Assembly: GCA_937858895.1 (NCBI GenBank)
Contig: CALLZN010000394.1
Coordinates: 1 to 32,748, forward strand
Direction of reading: 5' to 3'
Length of the DNA stretch: 32,748 nt
Source: an uncultured bacterium
GTDB taxonomy: Bacteria > Planctomycetota > UBA1135 > GCA-002748355
Shown: positions 6,523 through 32,227 of the stretch, piece by piece
Numbering within the stretch: the first letter of the stretch is position 1
Layout: every line of letters starts with the position of its first letter
Position numbers and translations under genes: made by a program
The notes under the pieces: generated by a model
What the model saw: the letters and a program-made list of their open reading frames with translations, nothing else
Databases searched by the model: none
Told to the model about the DNA's origin: nothing

Positions 6523-7311
6523 TCAGAGCTTCAAGCCGAAGAGCGCGTCGCTGTTTGCCGTGCACGTCTCTGCCATTTCCGCCAACGGCACCCCGCGCGT
6601 GGCGGCGAGCGTCGTGAGGACTTCGACTACGCCGCTCGCTTCGTTGCGTGAGCCGCGCCGCGATTGCGGAGGCAGGAAGGGTGCGTCCGTTTCGACGAGG
6701 ACGCGGTCGGCTGGCACGAAGCGGGCCGCTTCACGCAGCGTGTTGTTGCGCGGATAGGTCAGCGGCCCCGCGAAGGAGACATGGAGGCCGAGGTCGAGGC
6801 AGGCGCGCGCGGCATCCACATCGCCCGTGAAGCAGTGCAGGACACCGCGCACCGGAGCCTCGTGCGCAAGCGCCGCGAAGAGCTCTGGAAAGGCGTCGCG
6901 ACAGTGCAGGATGACAGGCTTCTGGACTTGGCAGGCCAAGTCGAGCTGGCTTTGCAACGAAGCGAGTTGGACCTCGAGCGGCACCCGGTCCCAATAGAGA
7001 TCGAGGCCCGTTTCGCCGATCGCGACGCAGGCCTCGTCGACGGCCAAGGCGCGCAAGGCGGGCAAAGCCTGGGCATAGTCGGCGCAAGAATCAGGGTGCA
7101 AGCCCACGCTCGCGAAGACTCCGTCGATCGACCTCGCGCGTGCGAGCGCCGCTTCGCTCGAGGCGGGGTCGATGCCGACGTCGATGATGGCCACGACTCC
7201 GAGTGCTTGCGCGCGCGCGACCTGCTCCTTGGCAGGCGGGCCAGCAGCGTCAGCATCGAAGCCGAGGTGGCAGTGCGTGTCGACAATCCGGAACTGTTCG
7301 CTTCGACTCAT
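6523..7311 (-). CDS. tatD: TatD-family metal-dependent hydrolase (putative deoxyribonuclease)
   Basis: This 262-residue protein has the full TatD signature of a TIM-barrel, two-metal phosphoesterase acting on DNA. It has the His13-x-His15 pair in DTHCHL near the N-terminus, Glu100 in AIGETGLD, His136 in VILHCRDA, His159 in VLHCFTGD and Asp209 in VETDAPFL. The length fits the family (about 255-265). The ATG at 7311 is preferred because it overlaps the TGA of the upstream minus-strand gene by 4 nt; a GTG at 7320 would add only three residues. It is translationally coupled to the membrane-anchored repeat protein at 7308-8309, which is not a usual tatD partner. In bacteria TatD proteins are cytoplasmic and have been tied to DNA repair, DNA turnover and processing of 3' ends. 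The family call is firm; the physiological substrate is not defined. Confidence 0.92.
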   Translation of the reverse strand: MSRSEQFRIVDTHCHLGFDADAAGPPAKEQVARAQALGVVAIIDVGIDPASSEAALARARSIDGVFASVGLHPDSCADYAQALPALRALAVDEACVAIGETGLDLYWDRVPLEVQLASLQSQLDLACQVQKPVILHCRDAFPELFAALAHEAPVRGVLHCFTGDVDAARACLDLGLHVSFAGPLTYPRNNTLREAARFVPADRVLVETDAPFLPPQSRRGSRNEASGVVEVLTTLAATRGVPLAEMAETCTANSDALFGLKL

Positions 7312-8309
7312 CCGCACCACTGCTGGAGCAGTTGGCCCAAGTTCATGCGGACAGAATCGTCGGTCTCTTCAGCGAACTTCTCACGCAGCCAAGGACATGC
7401 GAGCGCGCCTTGGATCTCGGCGACCGCGCGCGCGAGCTTGCGTCGCAACAGGGCATTGCGCTGTTCGATGGTCACGCTCGAGCCGCCCTGGAAGATGTTC
7501 TGGATCGTCTCGACCGTCTCTGGGTTCTTGGCTTCGATCAGTCCATCGACGGCTGCCTGGTAGGTCGCGACATCGTGCCCCGCCGTCTTGAGGACGACGA
7601 CCAGGGTGTCGGCCTTGCCGGCGTCTCGTGAGCGGAGGTAGAGGTTGACGAGGCTCGAGAAGCCCGGGTAGCCGCCGACGGCGAGACCTCCACTTGGCCC
7701 CGACCCGACGCTGTGGCGCGCCCCACGGTAGTTCTCGGTTAGCAGAATCTGGCGGATCTTGGCGCCCCCGAGCTCCGGGTCGATGTCGAGCAAGAGTTCG
7801 CCGGCCGCCGTTCGGATGGCCGACTGCATGCCGACATCGGTCAGGTGGGCGATGAGGATGTCGCGGCAGCGCTGGCGGTCGAGGTCACAGAGGACCCGCA
7901 GTAAGCGCTTGGCGAAGGGCGTCTGGGTCTTGTCGTTGGCAATGGCCAGGAAGCGCTCTTCGACCGCGACGTAGGCCGGCGCGCCGATGGCCCGGAGTGC
8001 GGCGATGCCGCGACCGATGCGCTCTTCGAGGATCGGCTGCTCGAGAATACTGTTGCCGTATTGCTGCTCGCGTTCGGCCCAAGTCGCGAGGTAGCCGAGC
8101 ACTGCCTCGACCGGCCAGCCCTCGGGGTCGCGGCCGAAGTGCAGGAGTTCGACCGAGTTCTCGATGCGATCGAGGCGCTCGTTGACTTCGGCCAGCCGCG
8201 CGGTTTGGGCGTCGATCGCGGGGAGGAAGCGCCAGTGCAGCCAGGCTCCGATCACAGCGAAGAGAGCCAGGGAAGCGAGGAAGGCGGGTAGCGGATTGCT
8301 CTTGGCCAT
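7308..8309 (-). CDS. membrane-anchored HEAT-like repeat protein, function unknown
   Basis: This 333-residue protein starts with one transmembrane segment (about residues 8-26). A short predicted coiled coil follows (DAQTARLAEVNERLDRIENS, about residues 34-53). The rest is a largely helical body with HEAT/armadillo-like helix pairs, for example around AALRAIGAPAYVAVEERFLAIAND and SAIRTAAGELLLDIDPELGG. A glycine-rich loop (SVGSGPSGGLAVGGYPGFSS) interrupts the middle. It contains no catalytic motif I recognise. The single N-terminal anchor suggests a body facing the periplasm, where it could act as a scaffold. Its stop overlaps the tatD start by 4 nt, so the two are co-translated. It is divergent from the lipoprotein genes across a 396-nt gap. 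No good Shine-Dalgarno is visible before the ATG at 8309. The repeat assignment is a pattern impression. Confidence 0.65.
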   Translation of the reverse strand: MAKSNPLPAFLASLALFAVIGAWLHWRFLPAIDAQTARLAEVNERLDRIENSVELLHFGRDPEGWPVEAVLGYLATWAEREQQYGNSILEQPILEERIGRGIAALRAIGAPAYVAVEERFLAIANDKTQTPFAKRLLRVLCDLDRQRCRDILIAHLTDVGMQSAIRTAAGELLLDIDPELGGAKIRQILLTENYRGARHSVGSGPSGGLAVGGYPGFSSLVNLYLRSRDAGKADTLVVVLKTAGHDVATYQAAVDGLIEAKNPETVETIQNIFQGGSSVTIEQRNALLRRKLARAVAEIQGALACPWLREKFAEETDDSVRMNLGQLLQQWCG

Positions 8310-8705: not shown

Positions 8706-11336
8706 ATGAGCGGCCGAAATACCGGACCGATCCTCTTCTCCGCGCTCCGCCAGGCCCGCAATCTCGCTATCCCGCTCGCGCTCTTTGCGCTCGGTTCTTG
8801 CGGAGGTAGTGGTGGAGGCACCCCTGCAGGCATCGTCGGCTGCACGGACGGCAGCAAGGCGCTTTGCGTCACCGCTTGCAACCTCGGCTGCAGCACGAGT
8901 GGTTGCAGTCTCAGCAACATCGCGGTGAACCAACGGCTCGACTTCAGCTTCAATCTCGAGGTCGATGCGGCGAGGGTCACCACGAACAGGGTGCGCATCC
9001 GCGGGCGCGCGGGTAACGAGCCGATCGGGGTCTTCCTCGTGCAAGGCGCGACGATCAGCTTCGTGCCCGAGGTCAAGCAGGGAGGTGGCGAGACCTTCTT
9101 CGGCTTCACGAGGGACGAGACCTACACGCTCACGATTCCTTCCAAGGGGAATGCCTTCGAGACCCTGCGCTCGACATCGGGGGACGTCTTGGCGTCGGAC
9201 TTCTCTTGTCGCTTGCAGGTGACGCTCGGCATCGTCGACTTCGACGGCCAGCCGCCGCGCGCTTCGCTGCTCGTGCCTTCGACGATCGGCAAGAACTGTA
9301 TCGATCGCCGCGACACGAACATGCTGATCGAGTTCTCCGAACTCATCGATCCGCAGACTCTGACCGAGACCTCGGATGGTTTGAGCTTCCGCTTGGCTCA
9401 GGCCGACAACCAGGGCAACTGCTCGCAGAGCACGATTGCCATGCCGGGTGTGCGGACCATCAGTGTCGACCGCATCACGCAGCGCACGCGCGTTGCGTTC
9501 CGACCGGCCTTCGAGCCACCTGCGGGCTTCTGCATCATCGCGATCGTCTCCGACGAGATTCGCGACCTGTCTGGCAAGCGTGCGCAGCAGCAGAGCTTCT
9601 CCTTCTTGACTTGTGCCGGTGACGCGCCAACGCGAGAGATCGTCGATGACTTCTCGGACGATTCGACCAACGACCGGTCGCGCGGCGGGGCCAAGTGGGT
9701 TCAAGGCGCGGTCGTGGCGCCCACGCTCGGGGGAAGCGGCCGACACGGCGACTTCAATTATTTGCGCGTCGGCGCGAAGGACACATCGCGGGTCGATGCC
9801 CAGGATCGTCAGATCTGGGAGCTCAACGTCGATACAGCGGTGATTTCGGAACTCAGCACTCTGAGCGGGCAGGACGAGCCGGTCGTCAACGGCATCTTCG
9901 AGTTCACGAGCTTCTCGATCCCGTCCAACATCCACCTACAGCTCGTGGGTACGAAGGTGCCGGTGATTCGGGTCAGCGGCCAGGTCGACATCCAGGGCGT
10001 GCTTTCGCTTCCGCCGGAGACCGCGACCAAGCTGCTCGGGGCGAACAACAAGCCGCCCCTGGACGGACAGCAGGGCTTCCGCGGGGCGATCGGTGGCGGC
10101 ACGGGCGGCATCGGTGCGGACAGCCCGCACAAGAGCGGTGGCGGTCGCTTGGTCGGTACTGCGGGCGAGTCGATTCGCCTGCCGGCTGGACATCCCTTCG
10201 CTGCCTCTGCCGCGAATACCGGTGGCCTGCCGACGGGGGCCTGGCCGGCGAGCGGTCTTGACAAAGACGTGAAGTTCTCAGTTCAAGTCGTGCTCTGTCA
10301 GATGGCTGCAGCTGGTGGGAGTGGTGGCTCCTTCATCACCGCGGGCGGCGTCGGCTCGACGATCGACAACCTCTCGGCGGGAACCAAGGGGCAGCCGTAC
10401 GACTTTGGACCCGCTGGGTCGCCGAGCACGCCGGTCGACATCGCCCTCTTGCGCAATCGCTCGGAGCGCAGCTCGCTCCTCTATCTCCTTGGCGGTTCGG
10501 GCGGTGGTGGATCCGGCACGCATGCCAGTTCGACCTTTGATTCGCTCCCCTTCAGTCCACTTGCCTGGTCGCCTGGCTCGGGCGGCGCTGGTGGTGGGGG
10601 CATCCTGCACTTCCAAGTTGGCAGCGACTTCAACGTCGGAATCCGGGGCATCGTGAGTGTGGCGGGCGGCAATGCTCAGGACTACAACGTCGACCTCACG
10701 AACTTCACCAACCCGCCGCCAGGCGGTGCGGGTAGCGGCGGATCCCTGCTCTTGCCGGTCGGGGGGCTCCCCGACATCCGTGGTTCCGTGACGGCCGCCG
10801 GTGGTGCGGCCGGGCGCTATCGCTCGCGCGACTACAGCTTCACGGTCGACAGCGTCAGCGGTGCTGGCGGCGATGGCTTGCTGCGCTACGAGTCGGATCC
10901 GCCGCCGGCGCTTGCGGCTCTCGTCAACATGACGCCGACGCCAACCGCGGACAACATCGGCCCGGTCCATCCGGACGATGCCTCGCAGTTCTCGGTGCTC
11001 GCGACCGACTGGTACGACACGGGGCTCTTCTTCCCGCCGAAGCACCTGCGCTACGTCATCGAGGCGACGATCGACGACGTGCCGACCGTCTTCAGCGACG
11101 ACTCGACGCTCGGGCGCCGGGCCCAAGTCGGAGAGCCGATCGAAATCCTCTTCCAGGGTGCCCAGCTCGACGCTCAAACCAAGCGTCCGATGCCGCCCTT
11201 CTCCTCGTGGTCGTCAGGCACGATCGATGGCTTGACCCTCGCGGGTGGCAATGCCTTCCGCGTGCTCCTGCGCTTCGACCGTAGCAAGGCGTCGAAGATC
11301 GTCGTCAACAAGACCACCTACCGCTTCCAAGGTTGA
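8706..11336 (+). CDS. large glycine-rich lipoprotein with Ig-like segments (tandem paralog 1)
   Basis: This 876-residue secreted lipoprotein has a basic N-terminus, a hydrophobic stretch and a lipobox L-G-S-Cys32, so it should be lipid-anchored. Past a short GGSGGG linker sits a cysteine cluster at Cys46, Cys54, Cys58, Cys62 and Cys67. Two segments then resemble SbsA/Big_5-type bacterial Ig-like domains. The first contains NQRLDFSFN and DETYTLTIP; the second contains NMLIEFSELIDPQTL, RTRVAFRP and ISDEIRDLSGK-like strands. The middle has a VNGIFEFTSFSIP motif. Long glycine-rich blocks (GGGTGGIGAD, LLGGSGGGGSGTH, GGAGSGGSLLLPVGG) alternate with short hydrophobic strands, which suggests a repetitive beta fold. 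A final non-repetitive domain ends the protein. It is 3 nt from its paralog downstream. A role as surface structural or adhesive protein is plausible but unproven. No enzyme motif was seen. Confidence 0.75.
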   Translation: MSGRNTGPILFSALRQARNLAIPLALFALGSCGGSGGGTPAGIVGCTDGSKALCVTACNLGCSTSGCSLSNIAVNQRLDFSFNLEVDAARVTTNRVRIRGRAGNEPIGVFLVQGATISFVPEVKQGGGETFFGFTRDETYTLTIPSKGNAFETLRSTSGDVLASDFSCRLQVTLGIVDFDGQPPRASLLVPSTIGKNCIDRRDTNMLIEFSELIDPQTLTETSDGLSFRLAQADNQGNCSQSTIAMPGVRTISVDRITQRTRVAFRPAFEPPAGFCIIAIVSDEIRDLSGKRAQQQSFSFLTCAGDAPTREIVDDFSDDSTNDRSRGGAKWVQGAVVAPTLGGSGRHGDFNYLRVGAKDTSRVDAQDRQIWELNVDTAVISELSTLSGQDEPVVNGIFEFTSFSIPSNIHLQLVGTKVPVIRVSGQVDIQGVLSLPPETATKLLGANNKPPLDGQQGFRGAIGGGTGGIGADSPHKSGGGRLVGTAGESIRLPAGHPFAASAANTGGLPTGAWPASGLDKDVKFSVQVVLCQMAAAGGSGGSFITAGGVGSTIDNLSAGTKGQPYDFGPAGSPSTPVDIALLRNRSERSSLLYLLGGSGGGGSGTHASSTFDSLPFSPLAWSPGSGGAGGGGILHFQVGSDFNVGIRGIVSVAGGNAQDYNVDLTNFTNPPPGGAGSGGSLLLPVGGLPDIRGSVTAAGGAAGRYRSRDYSFTVDSVSGAGGDGLLRYESDPPPALAALVNMTPTPTADNIGPVHPDDASQFSVLATDWYDTGLFFPPKHLRYVIEATIDDVPTVFSDDSTLGRRAQVGEPIEILFQGAQLDAQTKRPMPPFSSWSSGTIDGLTLAGGNAFRVLLRFDRSKASKIVVNKTTYRFQG

Positions 11337-11339
11337 TCC

Positions 11340-13958
11340 ATGAGAACGACGTCCAAGCTCTTTCTCGCCCTGCCTCTCCTTCTCGCGGTCACTGCCTGTT
11401 CGGGCAGCGGCGGAGAAGCGGGGCTCGGGGCTGCGTGCCGCGGTTCCTCGGGGCTCTGTCTCGTGTCGTGCAGCCTCGGCTGTTCGCTCGAGGGCTGCAG
11501 CATCAAGAGCATCCCGGTCAACCAGCGCATCGTCTTCCGCTTCTCGCAGCCGATCGAGCCTAGCTCCGTTTCGCCTTCGACCGTGCGCTTGCGCAGCTCG
11601 CAGGGCGAACAACCGGTCGGCGACTTGATCGTCCAGGGTTCGGACATCGTCTTCAAGCCGGCGGTGCTTTCGAGCACGGAGTACGGCTTCGTCGAGAACG
11701 AGACTTACACGCTCGAACTCGCGGGCGGTCCTGGTGCTTTGGCGTCGATCGAGTCCTTGTCGGGTGACAAGCTCGGTGCGCGCCTCGCTTGCACGCTGTC
11801 GACGGACCTCGGAGTCATCGATGCGGACGGCAAGCCGCCGATCGGGGCGCTCGTCGTGCCGGACACGATCGTCGGTGTGAAGGCCGACACGCTGATCGTT
11901 GTCGAGTTCACGGAGAGCATCAACACCCTGCCGTTCCAGAACGGGGGCACGGGCGGCACGATCCTCTACAAGGTCGCTCTACCGGACTCGACATTGCCGA
12001 GTGGTTGCTCGAGGCGCTACTTCCCGCTGCCGGGTTCCGCGGCGCTCTCCGAGGATCCGATCACAGGGCGCACGAGAGTGGTCTTCCGCCCGTCCCTCCT
12101 CTTGCCGAGCGGCGCGTGCATCCAGGTCGAGATCACAGACGAGATCCGCGATCTGTCGGGCAAGTCGGCGGCAGGTCAAGTCTTCGACTTCGTGGCAGAG
12201 GCGCGTGCGGTCGTCGACCAGTTCCTGGAAGAGACCTTCGTCACCGCCGCCAAAACCGACGGGCTGCGCAGCGGCTCGTCATGGGGTGGCGGCAGTCTCA
12301 AGGTCGGCAAGCTCGGTGGCACCGGCATCCTCGGTTCCTTCAACCCTGTTGATGGCAAGGACCTGCAACAGAAGGATGCGCAGGGCCGCGACATCTACGA
12401 GTGGAACACCGACAGCGCGGTCATCCCTGAGTCGCGGACCTTGACGAACCAGGCCATCACGGTCACGAACGGAATCTTCGAGTTCACCGACTTCGTCGTC
12501 GGTGAGAAGGAGCGCGTGCGCTTCGTCGGCACGAAGCCCCCGATCATCCGCGCGTCCGGCACGATCCAGATCAACGGCGTCATCGAGTTGGTCTCGCCAC
12601 TTCCATCGAATACGCCGCCGTTTGAGACACGCGCTGGTTGGGTCGGTGGCATCGGTGGGCCGGGCGGTGGACGTGGAGGACAAGGTGGCGACAAGCCCGA
12701 TCTCCCAAGCGGTTCGATCAACGGTCGACCTGGCGAGAATGTGCGCGTGCCGGCTGGCCATCCACGAGCGGCGCAGGCGGTTGGCACCGGTGGCCCGGGT
12801 TCGCTCGCCTTCCCACGCACTGGCCAGAATCAGGATGTCGTTTGGATCGTCTTCCAGAACTTCGACATCTACGTACGGATGATGGCCAACGGCGGTGGCG
12901 GCGGCTCCCTCTTCGACCGCAACGGTACGCTCCTCGGCGGTACTGGCTTGGTCGAACGGACGACCACCACGCCCATCCTTGGCCCTTACTCGAACGCAGA
13001 GTTTCCGCCCACCGAGGCGGGCAGCAAGGCCTTCCCGGTGTTACCGGAAGTTTCCGGAATCGCGAGCAAGGATCTCTTCCTCCTCGGCGGCTCTGGTGGT
13101 GGCGGGGCTGGTACGCACGCTGCCTACACGGCTACGAAGGCTGCGTATTCATGGTCACCCGGGTACGGTGGCGGTGGTGGTGGCGGGGCTATCGCCTTCG
13201 AGGCGGGATCGGATTTCGTCGTCTCGGCGAGCGGTGAGGTCTACGCGCTTGGCGGCGGCGGCCTCGAATCGATCAACTTGAATGGCACCCCGCCCGCCTA
13301 CGCCCCTGGTGGCGGCGGCAGCGGTGGTTCGATCCTCGTTCAGGTCGGCGGTGTGCCAACCATCGTTGGTAAGGTCGACGTGTCTGGTGGAGCTGCCGGA
13401 ACCTTCCGGGAGACCGCTCCCCTCATCGATGTCAAGAGTCGCGGCGGCAATGGCGGCGCAGGTTACATCCGCGTTGAGGCCGATCCCAAGCCGAGCGCGG
13501 GCGCCTTCGGCGGCTTCAAGCCCGTGGCCATGGACGACAATGTCGGTCTCCTGAGGAGCGTCGACTACAGCGCGGCAACGGTTGCGGCCTCGTCGATCTA
13601 TGTCGCGCAGTCGCTCTTCCCGCCGACTTGGCTCTATTACAAAATCGACGCCAAGATCGACGGTGTGCCGGTGACCTACAGCGACGACATTCGCATGGTT
13701 CCGGGCAGTAAGCCGGCGTCCTCGTCGGAGCCGGTCGCGATCTACTTCAAGAGCGTGGCGGCCGATGCGCAGACCTCGCAGCCGATTGGCGAGTTCACGC
13801 CTTGGGTGCCTGCAACGGTCAAGGACTTCTCATTGCCGAAGTACGAGACCACTGCCGGCAACGGCATGCTCTTCCTGATCGTGCTCGACAAGGCCAAGAC
13901 GCCGACAAAGACGGGCTCGATCGAGATCACGAACCTGCGCATGTACTATCGCGGCTGA
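11340..13958 (+). CDS. large glycine-rich lipoprotein with Ig-like segments (tandem paralog 2)
   Basis: This 872-residue protein is a clear paralog of the lipoprotein just upstream, which ends 3 nt before this ATG. The signal peptide ends in the lipobox V-T-A-Cys20. The cysteine cluster is repeated at Cys33, Cys40, Cys44, Cys48 and Cys53. The same order of landmarks follows: VNQRIVFRFS, ENETYTLEL, the DEIRDLSGKSA strand, VTNGIFEFTDF, VRVPAGHPRAA, LLGGSGGGGAGTH, WSPGYGGGGGGGAI and GGGGSGGSILVQVGG. The C-terminal domain starts near SIYVAQSLFPPTWLYYKID, matching the first protein's TGLFFPPKHLRYVIE region. The two copies have diverged substantially, so the duplication is not recent. Both are probably co-transcribed and exported to the same envelope layer, perhaps as partners. 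No enzymatic motif is visible. Confidence 0.75.
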   Translation: MRTTSKLFLALPLLLAVTACSGSGGEAGLGAACRGSSGLCLVSCSLGCSLEGCSIKSIPVNQRIVFRFSQPIEPSSVSPSTVRLRSSQGEQPVGDLIVQGSDIVFKPAVLSSTEYGFVENETYTLELAGGPGALASIESLSGDKLGARLACTLSTDLGVIDADGKPPIGALVVPDTIVGVKADTLIVVEFTESINTLPFQNGGTGGTILYKVALPDSTLPSGCSRRYFPLPGSAALSEDPITGRTRVVFRPSLLLPSGACIQVEITDEIRDLSGKSAAGQVFDFVAEARAVVDQFLEETFVTAAKTDGLRSGSSWGGGSLKVGKLGGTGILGSFNPVDGKDLQQKDAQGRDIYEWNTDSAVIPESRTLTNQAITVTNGIFEFTDFVVGEKERVRFVGTKPPIIRASGTIQINGVIELVSPLPSNTPPFETRAGWVGGIGGPGGGRGGQGGDKPDLPSGSINGRPGENVRVPAGHPRAAQAVGTGGPGSLAFPRTGQNQDVVWIVFQNFDIYVRMMANGGGGGSLFDRNGTLLGGTGLVERTTTTPILGPYSNAEFPPTEAGSKAFPVLPEVSGIASKDLFLLGGSGGGGAGTHAAYTATKAAYSWSPGYGGGGGGGAIAFEAGSDFVVSASGEVYALGGGGLESINLNGTPPAYAPGGGGSGGSILVQVGGVPTIVGKVDVSGGAAGTFRETAPLIDVKSRGGNGGAGYIRVEADPKPSAGAFGGFKPVAMDDNVGLLRSVDYSAATVAASSIYVAQSLFPPTWLYYKIDAKIDGVPVTYSDDIRMVPGSKPASSSEPVAIYFKSVAADAQTSQPIGEFTPWVPATVKDFSLPKYETTAGNGMLFLIVLDKAKTPTKTGSIEITNLRMYYRG

Positions 13959-24094: not shown

Positions 24095-24203
24095 AAGAGC
24101 GAGCCTCTGAGCACGTGGGCCGGTCGCTGCGATCCTGAGGGGGAACCGTGCCAAGCGAAGGCCGTTGTGCCCGCACAATCCCCAAACCGAAACGGATCCA
24201 CCA

Positions 24204-24209
24204 AAGGGA
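24204..24209 (+). promoter_or_regulatory. ribosome binding site deciding the A2M-like start
   Basis: AAGGGA is followed by an 8-nt spacer and the ATG at 24218. This favours 24218 over the ATG at 24209 that overlaps the motif, and over a GTG at 24167. The 24218 start also gives a compact signal peptide. Confidence 0.6.
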
Positions 24210-24217
24210 TGCTCGTC

Positions 24218-27200
24218 ATGTCGTCGCTCGGTCGCCTTCTGCCTGCGGTCTTTCTCCCCTTCTTTCTCCAGGCTTCGACGCCGCAGAACCAGGCGCGCGA
24301 AGCCTTCCTGAGCCTGGCAGCGCGCGACTACGGCGCCGCGATCCGTGCTCTTGAAGCCGAGTACGGGAGTCAGCCGAAGGACGCACTCGGCGGGGGCGAA
24401 GCCGAGCGTGTGCTCTTCTTGCTCGCCAACGCGCGGCTCGTGAGTGGGGACGCCGCGGGAGCCGCCCGCGACTTCGAGGCCTGCCTCGACCGTCACGCGG
24501 AAGGACGGCACGCCGTGCTCGCGCGCTTCGGCCTCGCTCGCGCCAAGGCCAAGGTCGGCGACCATCGAACGGCGGCCGACCACTATGCCCATGAGGTCGC
24601 CCGCCTGCTCAGCGTCGAGCGGCGCCTCGGTCTCGCGGCGACCTACACCGGGCTCGTCGACAAGCGCCTCGCCCAGGAGCCACCCGACACGCGTGCGGCC
24701 ATCGCCTTCCTCGACCTCGCCGTCGCCCTCGAGCTGCCGCGGGACAAGGAGATCGAGCTACGGCGCCAGGCGGCCGAGCTCGCCTATCGAAGCGAGGACT
24801 GGGCCGACGCCGCGCGGCGAGCGGAGGAGATCACGAAGCTGGTCGGGCCGACGGTCCGCGACCCGGCAGCGACTCGCGACCGCATCTCGCTGGCTCGGGC
24901 ATGGCGCCGCGCCGGCAAGGTCGTCGAGGCGCGCCGTCTCCTCGAGGATCTCCTGCGTGGCGAGCTCGCAGCGCAGGGCGTGGACGCCGCGGCGCGCGAA
25001 GTCGCTGCACTCGCACGCTTCGAACTCGCGGCGACCTGGGGTCTGCCGACGGGCGGCACCAACGGCTTGCGGGCCAGAGACGAGCTGAGCCGCCTGCTGT
25101 CCGAGCATCCCGATGCGCCCTTCGCGGCCGAGGCGACCTGGCTCTTGGTCAAGACCCTCGAGGCGCTCGGGCGATCGCAGGAGGCCCTCGACGTCTGTGG
25201 GACTCTGCTCGCACGCTACAAGGCAGTCGAGGCGGCGCCGTCAGTCCTCACGAAGACGGTCATCGATCCCCTGGCCGAAGCGGCCATCGAGAAAGCCATC
25301 CTCCTCGGCGCCCTCGGTCGCTTCGAAGAAGCGCTGCAAGCAGCTCGCGACTACCTCGCGGGCCACCCGGCCCATGGGCGCTGGGTCGAGGCGCAGCAGG
25401 CCATCCTCGACTTCGAGCTGCGCCGCGCCTCCGCGCTGGCTGACCAAGGTCCCGAGCACGCGATCGAGGCGATCGAGCTCTACCACGCTTGGCTCGCTTC
25501 CCATCCCCTCGATGCGCGAGCTGCTTCGGTGTCCCTGAGCGTCGGCAAGCTCTTCGAGGCGAAGGCCAAGTCCGAGTCCGTCGAAGAGACGAAGCGTCGT
25601 GGCTTCGCGGCGGCGCGCGAGAGCTACGAGCAGACCGCGGCCAAGTATCCGAACAGCGGCGAGGCCTCCGAGGCGCGCTTCAGCATTGGTCGCCTCTACG
25701 AGACCGAGCTCTTCGACTACGCTGCGGCCATCGCAGCCTATGGTCGGGTCAGCGGCGGGTGGCAGGCCAAGGCGCAGCTGCGGCTCACGGCGCTGCGCGA
25801 GAAGAGCCTCGTCGTGACGACCGAGCGCATCTTCCGCAGTGACGAGGCGGCGGTCTTGAAGGTCGCGACCCGCAACATCGACAAGCTGCGCGTCCGCGTC
25901 TATGGCCTCGACTACGAGACGTTCTTTCGCGGCACCCGCGGTGTTGGAGACGTCGCTGCGCTTGCGGTCGAGGTCATCGCGCCGGACCAGAGCTTCGAAG
26001 CGCCGACCCCCGACTATGAGCCCTACCGCGAGACCGAGCGGGCGCTGCCGATCGAGACCAAGGGGCCAGGCGCCTGGATCGTCAAGGTCGACGACGGGGC
26101 GCTCGAGGCGACAGCAGTTGTCTTCGTGTCGGACCTCGCGGTCATCACCAAGGCGGCGCGCGATGAGCTCTTCATCTTCGCGCAGAACACCAAGACCCAG
26201 GCGGTCGAAGCCGGCGCCGAGGTCGTCGTGACCGACGGCAGCAAGGTCGTCGCCGAAGGCCGCACCGACGAGCGCGGTGTCTGGCGTTATCGCGGCGAAG
26301 CAACGAAGGCGGCCAAGCTCTGTGTCTTCGCGACGACAGCCTCCGGCAGCGGCGCGACGACGATGGACCTGAGCGGCCTCGTCACGGCTCAGGGCCTCGT
26401 CGCGCGTGCGGCGATTTGGACCGATCGCACCCTCTTCGCCCCCGGCGAAGTCCTGCATGCCAAGGCCGTCCTGCGCGAAGTCGAGGCCGGGCAATACCGG
26501 CTGCCGCCAAGGGTCCCGCATCGCTTCGAAGTGCTGGACCCGAGTGGTCGCCTGCTCGGCAGCGTGAGCCAGGAGCCCGACGAGTTCGGCACCCTGCGCG
26601 CTGACTTCGATCTGCCCGAGACCTCGCCGCCTGGCAGTTACTCGCTCGTCGTGACGCGGGAGCGGGACCAGCGCGTGCTCGCGACCGAGACGGTCGCGGT
26701 CGAGCACTTCACGAAGCCGAGGGCTTCGCTCGAGATCGAGAGCAAGGCCACGACCCTCTTGCGTGGGGACAAGATCGAGGGTGTCGTGCGGGCGGCATGG
26801 TTCTTCGGCGGGCCGGTCGTCGGCCGACGCATCAGCGTCCGCGCGAACATCGACGGCGGCCGCGTGCTCGAGGGCAGAAGCGACGAAAATGGCAGCTTCG
26901 CCTTCTCGTTCGAGACACAAAGTCTCGCGAGTGAAGCCAGCGTCCTCGTGACGGCGACCCTCGCCGAGGAGAGCGCGGTCGTGCAGCGTAGCTTCGAGGT
27001 GCGGAGCCAGGCCTTCACCCTCGCCTTGGACTTGCCTTCCAAGCTCTTCATCTGCGGTGACAGCCTCGAGGCGCAGGCCATGGTTCGCGCTCACGACGGC
27101 GCGCTGCTCGCGCGCGAGCTGCGCTTCGCGCTCTTCGAACTCGAGACGACGAAGCGCGGCACCGTCGAGCGCCCGCGCGGCGAAGTCATAGCGACGAGCC

Positions 27201-30200
27201 TCGCTGCGACCGGCATGGCGCGTGCGACCTTCCAGCTCAGCGGTGACTCGAAGAACCGCAGCGGCAACTGGCGGCTTCGCGTCGTCGGCGTCGACCGCAA
27301 CGGGGCCAGCGTCGAAGCGAGCACGACCTTCTTCGTCTCGGGCGAGGATGACGCGACCAAGCTCCGCGTGCTCTGTGACACACAGCACGGCAGCGTCGGT
27401 TCGAGCACGAAGCTGCGCATCGTCAACCGCGACGCCGCGCGGCTCGCGCTGATCACGATCGAGGGGGACGCGGTGCTCGACTTCGAGACCAGGCCGCTGG
27501 CCCTTGGCGAGACCATCATCGACCTGCCCTTCCGCGAAGTGCACGCGCCGAACTTCGCTTGGAACATCGCGCTCGCTGGTGAGCGTCGCCTCTACACGGC
27601 GCGCAAGGACTTCATCGTCGCGCGTCCGCTCGACGTCGAGCTGCGACGCATCGGCGACGCGCGCTTGCGCCCAGGCGACGAAGTGCCGATCGAGGTCATC
27701 GCCAAAGACGGTGCTGGCCGCCCCGTGCGGGCGGACTTCTCGCTGGCGCTCGTCGACCAGGCCCTGCTCGACCTGCGTCCCGATGCGTCGGCGACGCTCG
27801 ATGCGATCTTCTGGGGGCCGTCGGTTCGACGGAACACGGAGCTCGTGACGCATGGGTCGACGGCGTTCAGCTACGCGGCGACCACGCGTGGCGTCAACTC
27901 GGACCTCAAGGCTGACGAGCTGCTGCGGGAGCGCCTGCGGGCCGAAGAGCTCATGAAGGAAGCGTGGCGCGACCGTGGTGACGCCGCGTTGCCGGGCCTC
28001 GGAGACAAGAAGCTCGACCAGTTCAGTAGGGGCGCGTTGGAGCCCAGCGCGGTGCAGCTGGAGCTCGAGCAGACGGACGTCGCTCAGACCATGGGTATCG
28101 GTGGCGGAGGGGGCGGCAAATTCGGTGTCCGCAGCGGCGGTATCGCTGCTGTGCGTCGCGACCAGAGCCTCGGACAGCAGCAGCTGGGCGTCGTCGATCT
28201 CAACAGTTTTGGTGGTGGGCAGCTCTTCTTTGCAGCCCAGGGCCAGCAAGAGGAGGCGGGCATCGTCCGCTACTTCAAGAGCATCGAAGGTCGCACGGCC
28301 TTGACCTTGAGCAACGACTTCGCGACGCGAGCAGCGCGTGAAGAGCTGAATGTCCAAGAGCGCCGCATGGATGCAGGGTCTTCGATCTGGGTCGCGACGC
28401 TACGCACCGGCGACGATGGTCGCGCGACGACTACGCTGCGCCTGCCGCTCCGCGAAGGCGCCTTCCGTTTGCGCGTGCGCGGCCTGTCGGCTGAGTCGCT
28501 CTTCGGTGAAGCGAGTGAGGGCTTCGAGGTCAGCCGCGACCTCCTGCTCGAGCCGGTCGTGCCGAGCCTCGTCCTAGAAGGCGACGTGGTCCATGCAAGG
28601 CTCGGCGTTCATTGGCTCGGCAAGGAAGCGACCCGCGCGACCTGGCGGGTCAAGTCCGGGGCCGACCTCTTGCTCGAGGGATCGAAAGAGGTCGCGCCTT
28701 CGTCCGAGGAGCGCAGCGACTTCGACATCGCGACGAAGGTCGTCGGCGTCCAGCCCCTCGCCTTCGAGGGCGAGACAGCAGCCGGGAGTCGTGACCGCGT
28801 CCTCGGTGGCTACGAGGTCCGCGCCAAGGGGATCGAGGAGCGCGATGCTCGAGCTGGACTCCTCGGCGGCGAGACCTCGTTCGAGCTCGCGCTCCCGAAG
28901 GGCGAGTATCGCTCGCGCACCTTGACCCTCGACTTCGGCCCCGAGCTGCCCGAAGAGCTCCTACCGACCGCGCCCTTGACACGACGCTACAGCTTGTCCT
29001 GCGGCATCGACTGGCTGGTGCCGACGCAGCAGAACCGCGCCGCCGCCGGTCTCACGGCGCTCGCGCTCTTCGACGCGTGGAAGCGCGCCGCAACCGAGCG
29101 ACGCGACGCGAACACCGGGCTCGCCGCGACGATTCGCACGACGATCGGTCAGCTCACCGCGTCGCTGCAGGACGGTCGACTCGCGTGGATTGGCAAGACG
29201 AAGAACGACATCGTCGACGTCGAGGCGGGCCTCTTCGCGACGCTCTTCCTCGTGCGGGCGCAGAAGGCGGGCTTCGTCGTCGATCGCAACGTGCTGGGCG
29301 CCTTGCGCGCTCGCCTCATGGCCGAGGCCGGCGCGCGCGACCAAGGTCAAGCGACGCTGGCTCTGCTCGTCGCCGCCGAAGATGGCAGCGTCGACTTCGC
29401 GCGCTTCAACACGGTTCTTCGCGCGCGCACGCAGATGTCGCTCGGCTCGAAGGCGCGCCTCGTGCTCGCGGCAGCTGCGATGGGAAGGCCAGGCCTGACC
29501 GCCGACCTCGACCTCGTGTCGGACTTGCGGCGGCGCTTCGATGCCGGGACAGGGGCCAAGCCGCGGCACGTGCGGGTCGATGCAGCCACGCTGCGGGACA
29601 GCCTCTGGGCCCTCCTGGCCGTGCGTGAACAAGCTGGCAACGCGGCCCTCGTGCGCCTTGGCATGGACTGGCTCTGGGCTCAACGCGAGGCCAATGGCTT
29701 CGCTGATGCCGTCGCGACCGCGCTCGCGACCGACATCTACGCCCGCCAGGCGGTGGATCGCGATCAGCTCGCAGCCAAGGTCGTCGTGCGCGTCGCTTCG
29801 TTCGAGACGACGATCGACCTCGCAGCGGCGCCGCGTCACCACCGCGTCGAAGTGCCGGCGCAGCTCCTCACGGATGACAAGGTCCGGGTGACGCTGCAGA
29901 CTGCGGGCCGCGGCAAGGTCGTCTACACGGCGCTGCTCGCAGGCATGACGCGTGGCTTGCCCGAGGGGCGGCGCGATGCGGCAGCGCCTCAGCGGCGCTA
30001 CTTCCAGCCCGTCGACTTCGTGGACGGCCGGCCCTTGCCGGAAGGCTTTGCGGCGGTCGACGAGACCGTCGAGCGCTGGACGAACCTGGCGAGCGAAGTC
30101 GCGATCGGCGAGAGCATCCAGGCTCAGCTGCGCTGGCATCCGTCGCGCGACCTGCGCGCGCGCTTCGGATCGGTCGTCATCGAAGAGCCGCTGCCTGCCG

Positions 30201-32227
30201 GCGCCTACGTGCGGAGCGAGGACGTCAGCGGCAACTTCGACGAGGTCGAGGTCGGGCGTGGCTTCCTGCGCTTCTATCTGCACGCGACGCGGCCGGCTCT
30301 CTTCGTCCAGTACGCCTTGAGTGGCGTCGTGGCAGGTGAGTACGGCGTGCTGCCGGCGCGTGTCTTCTCGCTCGATCAAAGGGACATGCAAGCCTATGGC
30401 GCTGCGCAGTCCTTGCGCGTCTTGCGCGTGGGCGAAGCGCGCCGCGACGTGCGGCGCCCGACGCCCGACGAGCTGCTCGCGCGCGGCACGCGGCTCTTCG
30501 ATGACCCGCAGGGTGACCCTGCGCGTCGGGCCGAGGCCGAGCTCGTCTTGACGAAGCTCTGGGACGAGTATCGTGACCGCCTGAAGGACAGCGCCTTCGG
30601 AGATGTCGTGCGCCGCCTGCTTCAGAGCGCACTGCAGACCGGTGAGGCCACGAAGACGATCGCGCTCTTCGAAGCCCTGCGCGACCGCGATGCGAACGCG
30701 GTCCTGTCCTTCGCCGACACCGAGAAGGTCGCAGCGGCCTATGCCAAGAGCGGCGAGTTCGAGCGCGCCCTCCAAGTGCGCGAGGCTGTCTGCGAGACGC
30801 TCTTCCTTCGCGAAGTGCAGGTCGCAGGCGCCCTCGACCGCGTCGGCGAGGTCGCCCTCTCGATCGACTTCATGAATGCGCTCTTCCACGACTACCCGGG
30901 CTTGCCGACGATGCGCGGCGCGCTCTATGCCTTGGCGCAGTCGCTGCACGAGCGCGCCGCGTCGATCGCGGACGACGCGCCGGGTAGCGCGGCGCTGCGC
31001 ATCTCGCTGCGACGCAGCGCGCGCGACCTCTGTCGAGAGTATCTCTGGCGCTATCCCGACGACGCCGACGCCGACGAAGTCGTCTTCGCGCTCGCGAGCG
31101 TTGCGCTGGACGCCGACCAGGTCGAAGAGGCCAAGACGCTGCTCGAGCGTGCGCTTCCGGCGCACACCGCGTCGAAGTGGCTCGACGACTTCCTCTACTT
31201 GTCGGGCTACGCCTCCTACTTGCGTCGTGAAGACCAGGCGGCCCTCGACTTGCTTGCGCGCGTCGCGAGCGAGGACTTCGTGCTCGGTGCCGACCAAAAG
31301 GGACCGAGTTCGAACCGCGACGCGGCGGTCTTCCTCCAAGGGCAGATCCACCATGCCGCCGGCAATCCGAGCGAGGCCGTCGCCAAATACGAGGCCGTGG
31401 AGACGAGCATCGTCGAAGCGAAGGAGGCCGCCGACTACTTCCGCGCTCGCGAACTGCGTCTGCCTGAGGTCGTTGTCCTCGCGCCCACGGATGCGACGGA
31501 CGTCACGCTCACGCACCGCAACCTCGAGGCGGTTTCGATCGCGGTCTACAAGGTCGACCTCATGCGGCTCTACTTGATGCGCAAGTCGCTCGACGACGTC
31601 GCGTCGGTTCAGCTCTTCGGCATCGCGCCGGTCTTCGAACAGGAGCTCGACCTGCGTGCTGATCCGCGCTTCCGCGATGTCGAGCGCGCGCTGACGCTGC
31701 CGCTCGAAGGTCGCGGTGCCTGGCTCATCCTTGCCCGTACGGGTGCGGCGACGAGCACTTCCCTCGTCGTGCGCACAGCCCTCGAAGTCGAGACGCAGGA
31801 GCTCGTCGCCGAAGGCCGCGTCCGCGTCAACGTCCGTAAGGACGGCGTCGTCGTTCCGCGTGCGACGGTCAAGGTCGTCGGTGACCGCGATGGAACGATT
31901 CGCAGCGGCCGCACGGATCTACGCGGGGTCTTCGTCGCCGACGCTGTCCAGGGCATCGCGACGGTCCTCGTGCAGGAGGGCGAAGACTACGCCTTCTTCC
32001 GCGGCAAGGTCGCGCTCGGCCCGCCCATGCAGCAAGTCGAGCAGCAGCGCGGCATACAACTCGGCGTGCTGCACAAAAGCTTGAATCTCTCCGAGAAGGG
32101 GAAGAACTTCGACGCCCTCGAAGGCAACCGCGTCCTCAACATCCAGATCCAGCGCGCTGCGCGCGAGAAGCTCGAGACCTACTTCGAGAACAAGCAGCAG
32201 GGCGTCGACTTGCGGCGAGCGAAGTGA
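24218..32227 (+). CDS. giant exported TPR/alpha-2-macroglobulin-like protein
   Basis: This 2,669-residue protein has a signal peptide (MSSLGRLLPAVFLPFFLQAS) with no lipobox, so it should be periplasmic or secreted and not lipid-anchored. Residues about 25-520 are TPR-like helical repeats. A beta-rich block from about 530 begins the macroglobulin part: WTDRTLFAPGEVLHAKAVLRE near Trp734 is the MG2/MG3-type motif, and VDQALLDLRPD near 1179 is the bait-region-domain hallmark. Residues 1200-1390 contain a Gly/Gln-rich insertion. SIWVATLRTGDDGRATTTLRLP near Trp1391 starts the A2M domain. The helical thioester-like domain begins around Cys1595, but its motif reads Cys-Gly-Ile-Asp, not the C-x-E-Q needed for a thioester. 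A second TPR run (about 2085-2405) and a final beta-rich part follow. Bacterial A2M proteins trap proteases or guard the envelope; that role here is inferred. Confidence 0.82.
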   Translation: MSSLGRLLPAVFLPFFLQASTPQNQAREAFLSLAARDYGAAIRALEAEYGSQPKDALGGGEAERVLFLLANARLVSGDAAGAARDFEACLDRHAEGRHAVLARFGLARAKAKVGDHRTAADHYAHEVARLLSVERRLGLAATYTGLVDKRLAQEPPDTRAAIAFLDLAVALELPRDKEIELRRQAAELAYRSEDWADAARRAEEITKLVGPTVRDPAATRDRISLARAWRRAGKVVEARRLLEDLLRGELAAQGVDAAAREVAALARFELAATWGLPTGGTNGLRARDELSRLLSEHPDAPFAAEATWLLVKTLEALGRSQEALDVCGTLLARYKAVEAAPSVLTKTVIDPLAEAAIEKAILLGALGRFEEALQAARDYLAGHPAHGRWVEAQQAILDFELRRASALADQGPEHAIEAIELYHAWLASHPLDARAASVSLSVGKLFEAKAKSESVEETKRRGFAAARESYEQTAAKYPNSGEASEARFSIGRLYETELFDYAAAIAAYGRVSGGWQAKAQLRLTALREKSLVVTTERIFRSDEAAVLKVATRNIDKLRVRVYGLDYETFFRGTRGVGDVAALAVEVIAPDQSFEAPTPDYEPYRETERALPIETKGPGAWIVKVDDGALEATAVVFVSDLAVITKAARDELFIFAQNTKTQAVEAGAEVVVTDGSKVVAEGRTDERGVWRYRGEATKAAKLCVFATTASGSGATTMDLSGLVTAQGLVARAAIWTDRTLFAPGEVLHAKAVLREVEAGQYRLPPRVPHRFEVLDPSGRLLGSVSQEPDEFGTLRADFDLPETSPPGSYSLVVTRERDQRVLATETVAVEHFTKPRASLEIESKATTLLRGDKIEGVVRAAWFFGGPVVGRRISVRANIDGGRVLEGRSDENGSFAFSFETQSLASEASVLVTATLAEESAVVQRSFEVRSQAFTLALDLPSKLFICGDSLEAQAMVRAHDGALLARELRFALFELETTKRGTVERPRGEVIATSLAATGMARATFQLSGDSKNRSGNWRLRVVGVDRNGASVEASTTFFVSGEDDATKLRVLCDTQHGSVGSSTKLRIVNRDAARLALITIEGDAVLDFETRPLALGETIIDLPFREVHAPNFAWNIALAGERRLYTARKDFIVARPLDVELRRIGDARLRPGDEVPIEVIAKDGAGRPVRADFSLALVDQALLDLRPDASATLDAIFWGPSVRRNTELVTHGSTAFSYAATTRGVNSDLKADELLRERLRAEELMKEAWRDRGDAALPGLGDKKLDQFSRGALEPSAVQLELEQTDVAQTMGIGGGGGGKFGVRSGGIAAVRRDQSLGQQQLGVVDLNSFGGGQLFFAAQGQQEEAGIVRYFKSIEGRTALTLSNDFATRAAREELNVQERRMDAGSSIWVATLRTGDDGRATTTLRLPLREGAFRLRVRGLSAESLFGEASEGFEVSRDLLLEPVVPSLVLEGDVVHARLGVHWLGKEATRATWRVKSGADLLLEGSKEVAPSSEERSDFDIATKVVGVQPLAFEGETAAGSRDRVLGGYEVRAKGIEERDARAGLLGGETSFELALPKGEYRSRTLTLDFGPELPEELLPTAPLTRRYSLSCGIDWLVPTQQNRAAAGLTALALFDAWKRAATERRDANTGLAATIRTTIGQLTASLQDGRLAWIGKTKNDIVDVEAGLFATLFLVRAQKAGFVVDRNVLGALRARLMAEAGARDQGQATLALLVAAEDGSVDFARFNTVLRARTQMSLGSKARLVLAAAAMGRPGLTADLDLVSDLRRRFDAGTGAKPRHVRVDAATLRDSLWALLAVREQAGNAALVRLGMDWLWAQREANGFADAVATALATDIYARQAVDRDQLAAKVVVRVASFETTIDLAAAPRHHRVEVPAQLLTDDKVRVTLQTAGRGKVVYTALLAGMTRGLPEGRRDAAAPQRRYFQPVDFVDGRPLPEGFAAVDETVERWTNLASEVAIGESIQAQLRWHPSRDLRARFGSVVIEEPLPAGAYVRSEDVSGNFDEVEVGRGFLRFYLHATRPALFVQYALSGVVAGEYGVLPARVFSLDQRDMQAYGAAQSLRVLRVGEARRDVRRPTPDELLARGTRLFDDPQGDPARRAEAELVLTKLWDEYRDRLKDSAFGDVVRRLLQSALQTGEATKTIALFEALRDRDANAVLSFADTEKVAAAYAKSGEFERALQVREAVCETLFLREVQVAGALDRVGEVALSIDFMNALFHDYPGLPTMRGALYALAQSLHERAASIADDAPGSAALRISLRRSARDLCREYLWRYPDDADADEVVFALASVALDADQVEEAKTLLERALPAHTASKWLDDFLYLSGYASYLRREDQAALDLLARVASEDFVLGADQKGPSSNRDAAVFLQGQIHHAAGNPSEAVAKYEAVETSIVEAKEAADYFRARELRLPEVVVLAPTDATDVTLTHRNLEAVSIAVYKVDLMRLYLMRKSLDDVASVQLFGIAPVFEQELDLRADPRFRDVERALTLPLEGRGAWLILARTGAATSTSLVVRTALEVETQELVAEGRVRVNVRKDGVVVPRATVKVVGDRDGTIRSGRTDLRGVFVADAVQGIATVLVQEGEDYAFFRGKVALGPPMQQVEQQRGIQLGVLHKSLNLSEKGKNFDALEGNRVLNIQIQRAAREKLETYFENKQQGVDLRRAK

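Follow-up and report, generated by a model that had tools for sequence, protein, structure and literature searches.

Two adjacent genes of an uncultured planctomycete (lineage Planctomycetota; UBA1135; GCA-002748355) encode predicted lipoproteins, here called A and B, which we interpret as surface proteins in which an immunoglobulin (Ig)-like stalk, capped by disulfides, carries a ligand- or matrix-binding head. We place the probability of this account as a whole at about 0.58, and its anatomy is much safer than its function. The genes lie in a window of 32,748 nucleotides that is one entire contig (G000:C394) of a draft genome of 5.77 Mb, 88% complete. On the forward strand, which carries all features of the pair given below, protein A (876 amino acids, 8706..11336) is followed by protein B (872 amino acids, 11340..13958), with 3 nucleotides separating the stop codon of the first gene from the ATG of the second. 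A preliminary description, made from the letters of the window, had reported tandem paralogs of about 870 residues with a five-cysteine cluster, two Ig-like segments, glycine-rich blocks and matching C-terminal parts, and all of these are present in both open reading frames (ORFs). Its term "giant lipoproteins" stands as far as the lipobox is concerned, whereas "giant" is generous for two proteins of approximately 90 kDa each. It knew of no named family, and we likewise find none for the full-length proteins in NCBIfam; Pfam names only Big_5, and no description of the family was found in open-licence papers.

Both proteins begin with what reads as a signal peptide and a lipobox cysteine, the predicted lipidation site, at C32 of A (LGSC, 8799..8801) and C20 of B (11397..11399). 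The column is invariant in alignment A1, and in the 143-row alignment it has Cys in 142 of the 142 ungapped rows. The +2 residue after the lipidated Cys is Ser or Gly in 121/142 rows and Asp in three, and A and B are probably located at the outer membrane and exposed at the surface. The cluster begins 13-14 residues past the lipobox Cys. Reading of the sequence and a motif scan place it at C46-x7-C54-x3-C58-x3-C62-x4-C67 in A (8841..8906) and at C33-x6-C40-x3-C44-x3-C48-x4-C53 in B (11436..11498), numbered C1 to C5 in each. The motif C-x(6,12)-C-x3-C-x3-C-x(4,5)-C is found in 47 of the 52 family ORFs of families f1, f3 and f6, or 47 out of the 68 ORFs of the whole family; the 2,233 further ORFs of 120 amino acids or more (606,050 residues) in the same loci all lack it, as do 20,000 shuffled versions of A and 20,000 of B. 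The motif is not due to chance.

Given that five is an odd number, partner cysteines were looked for. Pairwise variation of the cysteine columns was evident already in a first alignment, made from 68 family ORFs. The larger set of 143 non-redundant rows was drawn from 248 ORF matches in 187 loci (at least 100 bits, profile start at most 30, end at least 255, duplicates removed), and the pattern was read in these rows rather than in all 151 genomes that match the profile. Written as presence or absence of C1 to C8, 72 rows are 11111111, 52 are 00111100, 11 are 00110000, two are 00100000 and two are 00000000, with four singletons. C1 and C2 are both present in 75 rows, both absent in 68 and never discordant; C5 and C6 are both present in 127, both absent in 16 and again never discordant. 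For C3 and C4 the figures are 139 both, two neither and two discordant, and for C7 and C8 74 both, 68 neither and one discordant. The two C3/C4 discordances read CSLGGAPC, in which the second Cys stands at a shifted spacing. Among the 105 possible pairings of eight cysteines, C1-C2, C3-C4, C5-C6 and C7-C8 is the best, with 3 discordances, the next best having 7. Three rows separate the pairs from one another: L016 lacks only C5 and C6, L127 only C1 and C2, and L024_1 only C7 and C8. Four rows of the first alignment, from two families, lack C5 and C6 and have Phe and Gly there instead. Pairwise gain and loss is also seen on a tree built without the cysteine columns, where partners changed together in 3/3 independent contrasts for C1/C2, 3/3 for C5/C6, approximately 1.8/2 for C3/C4 and 1/2 for C7/C8, while the mismatched controls gave 0/3 for C5/C7, 0.3/3 for C1/C5 and approximately one of three for C1/C7. 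In their pattern across genomes, the cysteines behave as disulfide partners C1-C2, C3-C4, C5-C6 and C7-C8, not as metal ligands, and pairing this clean makes a disulfide map predictable from genomes alone.

Within protein A, co-variation over the 143 rows predicts that C168 (C6, 9207..9209) is the partner of C67 of the cluster and that C239 and C276 (C7 and C8, 9420..9533) form a disulfide of the second Ig-like domain. A further predicted pair joins C198 (9297..9299) to C303 (9612..9614); these two columns hold Cys in the same five of 143 rows and in no others, and the pair is private to A-type proteins. B has nine cysteines, one lipidated and eight paired, with none left over. A also has an unpaired cysteine, C531 (10296-10298), within its glycine-rich insert, at a column with Cys in 10/59 rows; it may be a free thiol or form an inter-chain bond. 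In the C-terminal modules of family f8 (L066-L069), four more cysteines (A4 columns 479, 769, 1060 and 1190) occur in the same six rows and look like two further lineage-specific disulfides.

That the cysteines would be conserved in homologs, as the preliminary description expected, holds within the order, yet there the form of the cluster is variable and only C3-C4 is near universal, and elsewhere in the phylum there are cluster-less homologs. In the other families of the order most rows have C3 to C6 only; rows of f1, f3 and f6 also have C1-C2, and those of f1 and f6 C7-C8 as well. In homologs outside the order the lipobox is present, as are the Ig domains and the beginning of the module after them, while the C1-C6 positions have no Cys; the core that reads CNLGC in the order is FNLGR in L144/L187 (G169). 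The direction of change is inferred. In family f7 (L178, L137) the otherwise fixed CxLGC core is CSLGGAPC, the pair being retained at longer spacing.

The cluster is followed by the predicted stalk. In B, Ig-like domain 1 (approximately residues 57-158, 11508..11813) is a Big_5 domain by Pfam and in the model, and co-variation suggests that C151 (C6, 11790-11792), which lies beyond this domain and approximately 98 residues from C5, closes it on the cluster. Big_5 (PF13205) scores 39.3 bits in B, above the gathering cut-off of 23.6, and 22.2 bits in A, just below it; it is detected in 67/67 aligned N-termini at E <= 0.1. Other Pfam names each occur in a single member, for example one CopC and one CshA_repeat among the 67 N-termini. 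Ig-like domain 2 of B (approximately residues 161-289, 11820..12206), with C223 and C260 as C7 and C8, was recognized by structure comparison: it matches PcoC with Z 10.6 at 2.6 Å over 103 aligned residues (VIA-align), and CopC/PcoC, LdtMt2 and SbsC domains as a group with Z 9-10.6, the SbsC surface-layer (S-layer) domain at Z 9.9.

Beyond the stalk, the C-terminal modules of A (9609..11333, placed by alignment A4 with B and by the model of B) and B, of approximately 580 residues each, can be aligned over their whole length. AlphaFold2 predicted B from 60 aligned sequences with a mean predicted local distance difference test score (pLDDT) of 90.4 and a predicted template modelling score (pTM) of 0.75, and the module alone from 59 sequences with pLDDT 95.3 and pTM 0.92. 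Taken with comparison to the PDB, the models point to a jelly roll that a glycine-rich insert divides in two: in B the first half would comprise approximately residues 290-424 (12207..12611), the insert residues 425-720 (about 290 residues, 12612..13499) and the second half residues 721-872 (13500..13955). Residues 8-587 of the module model are spanned by only 113-129 positions aligned with jelly-roll sandwiches. The best match is a phage SU10 tail protein (Z 9.3), phage tail proteins giving Z 8.0-9.3; Eph receptor ligand-binding domains, CBM16, the Fbs1 sugar-binding domain and meprin follow at Z of about 7, and in the comparison with galactose-binding-like jelly rolls, Eph and CBM16 reach Z 6.8-7.6 over 113-122 residues only. 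Foldseek alone gave no match to the module below E 0.05, while a library of viral structures gave three at E < 1e-3, one of them named collagen-like protein of Orpheovirus.

The insert is rich in glycine, which makes up 22% of residues 425-720 in A and 24% in B, whereas the remaining blocks beyond residue 40 have 7-12%; across rows it measures 273-429 residues with 21-32% Gly. It is not floppy, as its blocks are modelled at a mean pLDDT of 94.8. Glycine occupies 13 of its 14 invariant positions, and the motif GGGGxGG is present in 49/59 rows, against 1.3 expected from shuffles. Short spacers between the glycine stems are invariant in length (standard deviation 0.0), and the loops range over 34-81 and 40-147 residues. 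The predicted secondary structure is mostly non-beta, and we infer polyglycine-II packing.

The family is close to universal in its order. Its N-terminal profile, which takes in the Ig domains, matches 151 of the 154 genomes of the order, which are also the entire sample of the class, including all 53 of good quality; among 246 genomes drawn from the phylum it matches 58, of which 16 belong to the same order. An independent scan of named genomes found relatives (24 loci) nearly all in metagenome-assembled genomes labelled Planctomycetota, and a first contig scan with protein A as query found no relative. Genomes of the order mostly carry several copies. The genome studied here has one further cluster-bearing copy, 51% identical to A, on contig C28. 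It also has partial copies of the C-terminal module on three contigs (C23, C79 and C102) and six weaker matches to it; on C23 and C79 the module follows a different, cluster-less N-terminus. As the module is also found without the cap, head and capped stalk are separate units. The same genome has a second family of cluster-less lipoproteins (L194, L196 and L198, on G000 contigs C415 and C51), two of them approximately 1,170 amino acids long, with an Ig-like start and a glycine-rich module that is a more remote version of the C-terminal one.

At the home locus the tandem pair occurs in 25/25 loci of f1, f3 and f6, some of them cut by contig ends, and in 3/14 loci fetched for f2, f4, f5 and f8. 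On a tree of 60 full-length proteins the f1 duplication predates the split of f1, a second one falls in f6 (branches at 91 and 85, neither of them starred), and f8 has within-genome pairs of its own. Tandem duplication has occurred repeatedly at this one conserved locus, which suggests that two copies are favoured by selection, perhaps as a heteromer.

How might such a protein work? The lipid on the first mature Cys would be followed by a Gly/Ser spacer of 10-20 residues and by a small cap held by C1-C2 and C3-C4, which C5-C6 would staple to Ig domain 1 at its distal end. Next would come Ig domain 2 with its own disulfide C7-C8, and in A the further C198-C303, and then the jelly-roll beta-sandwich of the head, from the middle of which the glycine-rich region would project. 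Near-fixed glycine stems with variable loops are the layout of a glycine-rich adhesin tip; the cap may rigidify the membrane-proximal end while the loops set specificity. Joint expression of the two genes is probable, and their products may act as a pair. Most likely they serve as adhesins at the surface or as display proteins that bind a ligand.

Three other readings have to be set against this one. The preliminary description had proposed a disulfide or metal knot at the membrane-proximal end, and of these the disulfide knot by the anchor is upheld. A metal or iron-sulfur (Fe-S) site at the protein's base would account for the close C-x3-C-x3-C spacing and for the near invariance of C3 and C4, and all its ligands should be conserved together. 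Instead, single pairs of cysteines disappear from proteins that are otherwise retained, only C3 and C4 being left in 11 rows, no His is found among the invariant positions, and C5 varies together with C6, which in B is 98 residues distant; because of this pairwise variation with a distant partner the metal site is not supported, and we regard it as very improbable. The glycine-rich part had likewise been suggested as a possible beta-helical shaft, which is not the best reading, as the insert is predicted to lie within the jelly-roll head and to be mostly non-beta. A pure beta-helix shaft is made less likely by the models and the PDB comparison. A short parallel beta-helix or beta-roll, serving as a stiff spacer rather than as a binding tip, finds some support in short strands at residues 332-361 and 379-406 of the module model, which could be its rungs, and in a repeated GGGG-strand-turn-strand-GG pattern. 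The first 190 or so residues of the insert are, however, strand-poor at high pLDDT, loop lengths vary widely between fixed glycine stems, and the insert sits inside a domain, not between domains, so that this alternative appears unlikely.

The main rival sees in A and B structural bricks of a disulfide-stabilised envelope, an S-layer or wall-like lattice built of lipid-anchored Ig-type units with a packing head, in a role comparable to that of the cysteine-rich wall proteins of Planctomycetales. In line with such a role, nearly every genome of the order has the family, usually in more than one copy, and its Ig-type domains are similar to those of SbsC; if the YTV wall proteins occur only in Planctomycetales, as reported (PMC8567305), other lineages may use other proteins. 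Yet even numbers of cysteines that co-vary within one chain point to internal disulfides, and of A and B only A has an odd one, C531. We consider the envelope brick doubtful, though better placed than the beta-roll spacer.

Several points weigh against the adhesin-like account itself. The sorting rules by which the +2 residue is read are those of E. coli. The tree shows only 2-4 changes per cysteine, and no single contrast is significant; with events too few for significance, the weight falls on the near-perfect concordance and on the three rows that each lack one pair. Jelly-roll Z scores of 7-9 may reflect no more than a common arrangement, sequence searches for solved relatives gave none that is credible (best E 0.41 in one of them), and short strands in the later part of the insert may belong to a small beta-roll. 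The housekeeping-like neighbours give no hint of adhesion, leaving the gene neighbourhood uninformative on function. The family is an unnamed, near-universal, multi-copy and probably envelope-located one in an order of mostly uncultured planctomycetes. More tentatively, and with the odds against it, one might see a near-universal class of surface receptors or adhesins of the order, in which a jelly roll is opened into a polyglycine-II bundle after the design of phage adhesins and ALK, on a lipid-anchored Ig stalk that gains disulfides pair by pair, with tandem heteromer partners arising repeatedly.

The surroundings of the pair are conserved across the order and housekeeping-like, with genes assigned by Pfam in the window and by reading of the sequence at other loci: TatD, HEAT, amidohydrolase, DHH phosphoesterase, metallophosphoesterase, CutA and SLC13-like. 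The counts of neighbouring genes are subject to truncation at contig ends. The divergent neighbour, a HEAT-repeat protein of 333 amino acids (7308..8309, reverse strand), was identified by Pfam and locus comparison; the same HEAT-repeat cluster adjoins the pair in 13 loci of f1 and f6, transcribed away from it, and may supply a partner of the pair. Further along the window, an ORF of 2686 amino acids (24167-32227, forward strand) has bacterial alpha-2-macroglobulin domains (MG2 at 1.2e-18, bMG3, A2M) with tetratricopeptide repeat (TPR)-like regions on either side, and no CxEQ thioester motif was noticed on reading it.

Among the closest known proteins are profile relatives, cluster-less lipoproteins of other Planctomycetota (such as L145, L146, L147 and L187), which share the lipobox, two Ig-like domains and the opening of the module that follows (E-x-F ... 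D) but have no Cys at the C1-C6 positions. Big_5 and CopC/PcoC resemble the N-terminal domains, by profile or structure (Z of about 10), yet cover under a third of the protein and leave the disulfide cap and the C-terminal module outside. The YTV wall proteins are Cys-bearing envelope proteins restricted to a single planctomycete lineage (PMC8567305), as A and B would be, albeit in a different lineage, and where these reportedly Planctomycetales-only proteins would be lacking the present family is a candidate surface protein. The PE_PGRS proteins of mycobacteria, for which polyglycine-II sandwiches are described (PMC10216338), also have a glycine-rich region that is folded, not disordered, and tolerates insertions; unlike the present family they carry GGX repeats after a PE domain, and the PE domain gave no Pfam match at E <= 1.

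Further parallels concern the head. ALK and LTK are reported to have an extracellular glycine-rich region adjoining a TNF-like jelly roll (PMC10605310), as the head would have beside its jelly roll; their domain ALK_LTK_GRD (PF12810) has no match in the genome at E <= 0.1 and none in 59 C-terminal modules at E <= 1. According to a further paper, Pam3 gp24 combines a TNF-like jelly roll with a glycine-rich domain bearing a -GGGGxGG- motif, a conserved stem and variable tips, and the Pam3 tail fibre is compared with ALK and S16 gp38 (PMC9608196). Such phage adhesin tips (Pam3 gp24, S16 gp38) share with the head as predicted a beta-sandwich extended into a glycine-rich domain, GGGGxGG and a fixed stem with a variable tip, but they are trimeric phage fibres, not lipoproteins, with 39% Gly as against 21-32% in this family. 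ALK, S16 gp38 and Pam3 gp24 are absent among the best 50 structure matches listed, which excludes nothing; PHROGs gave no phage relative, nor did tblastn of the module against 50,697 phage records. With no sequence tie to ALK or to phages, the family is similar to these in design and not a member of either. If the head is indeed a polyglycine-II tip, A and B would represent, as lipoproteins of cells, a design that has been described for fibres of phages and for receptors of animals.

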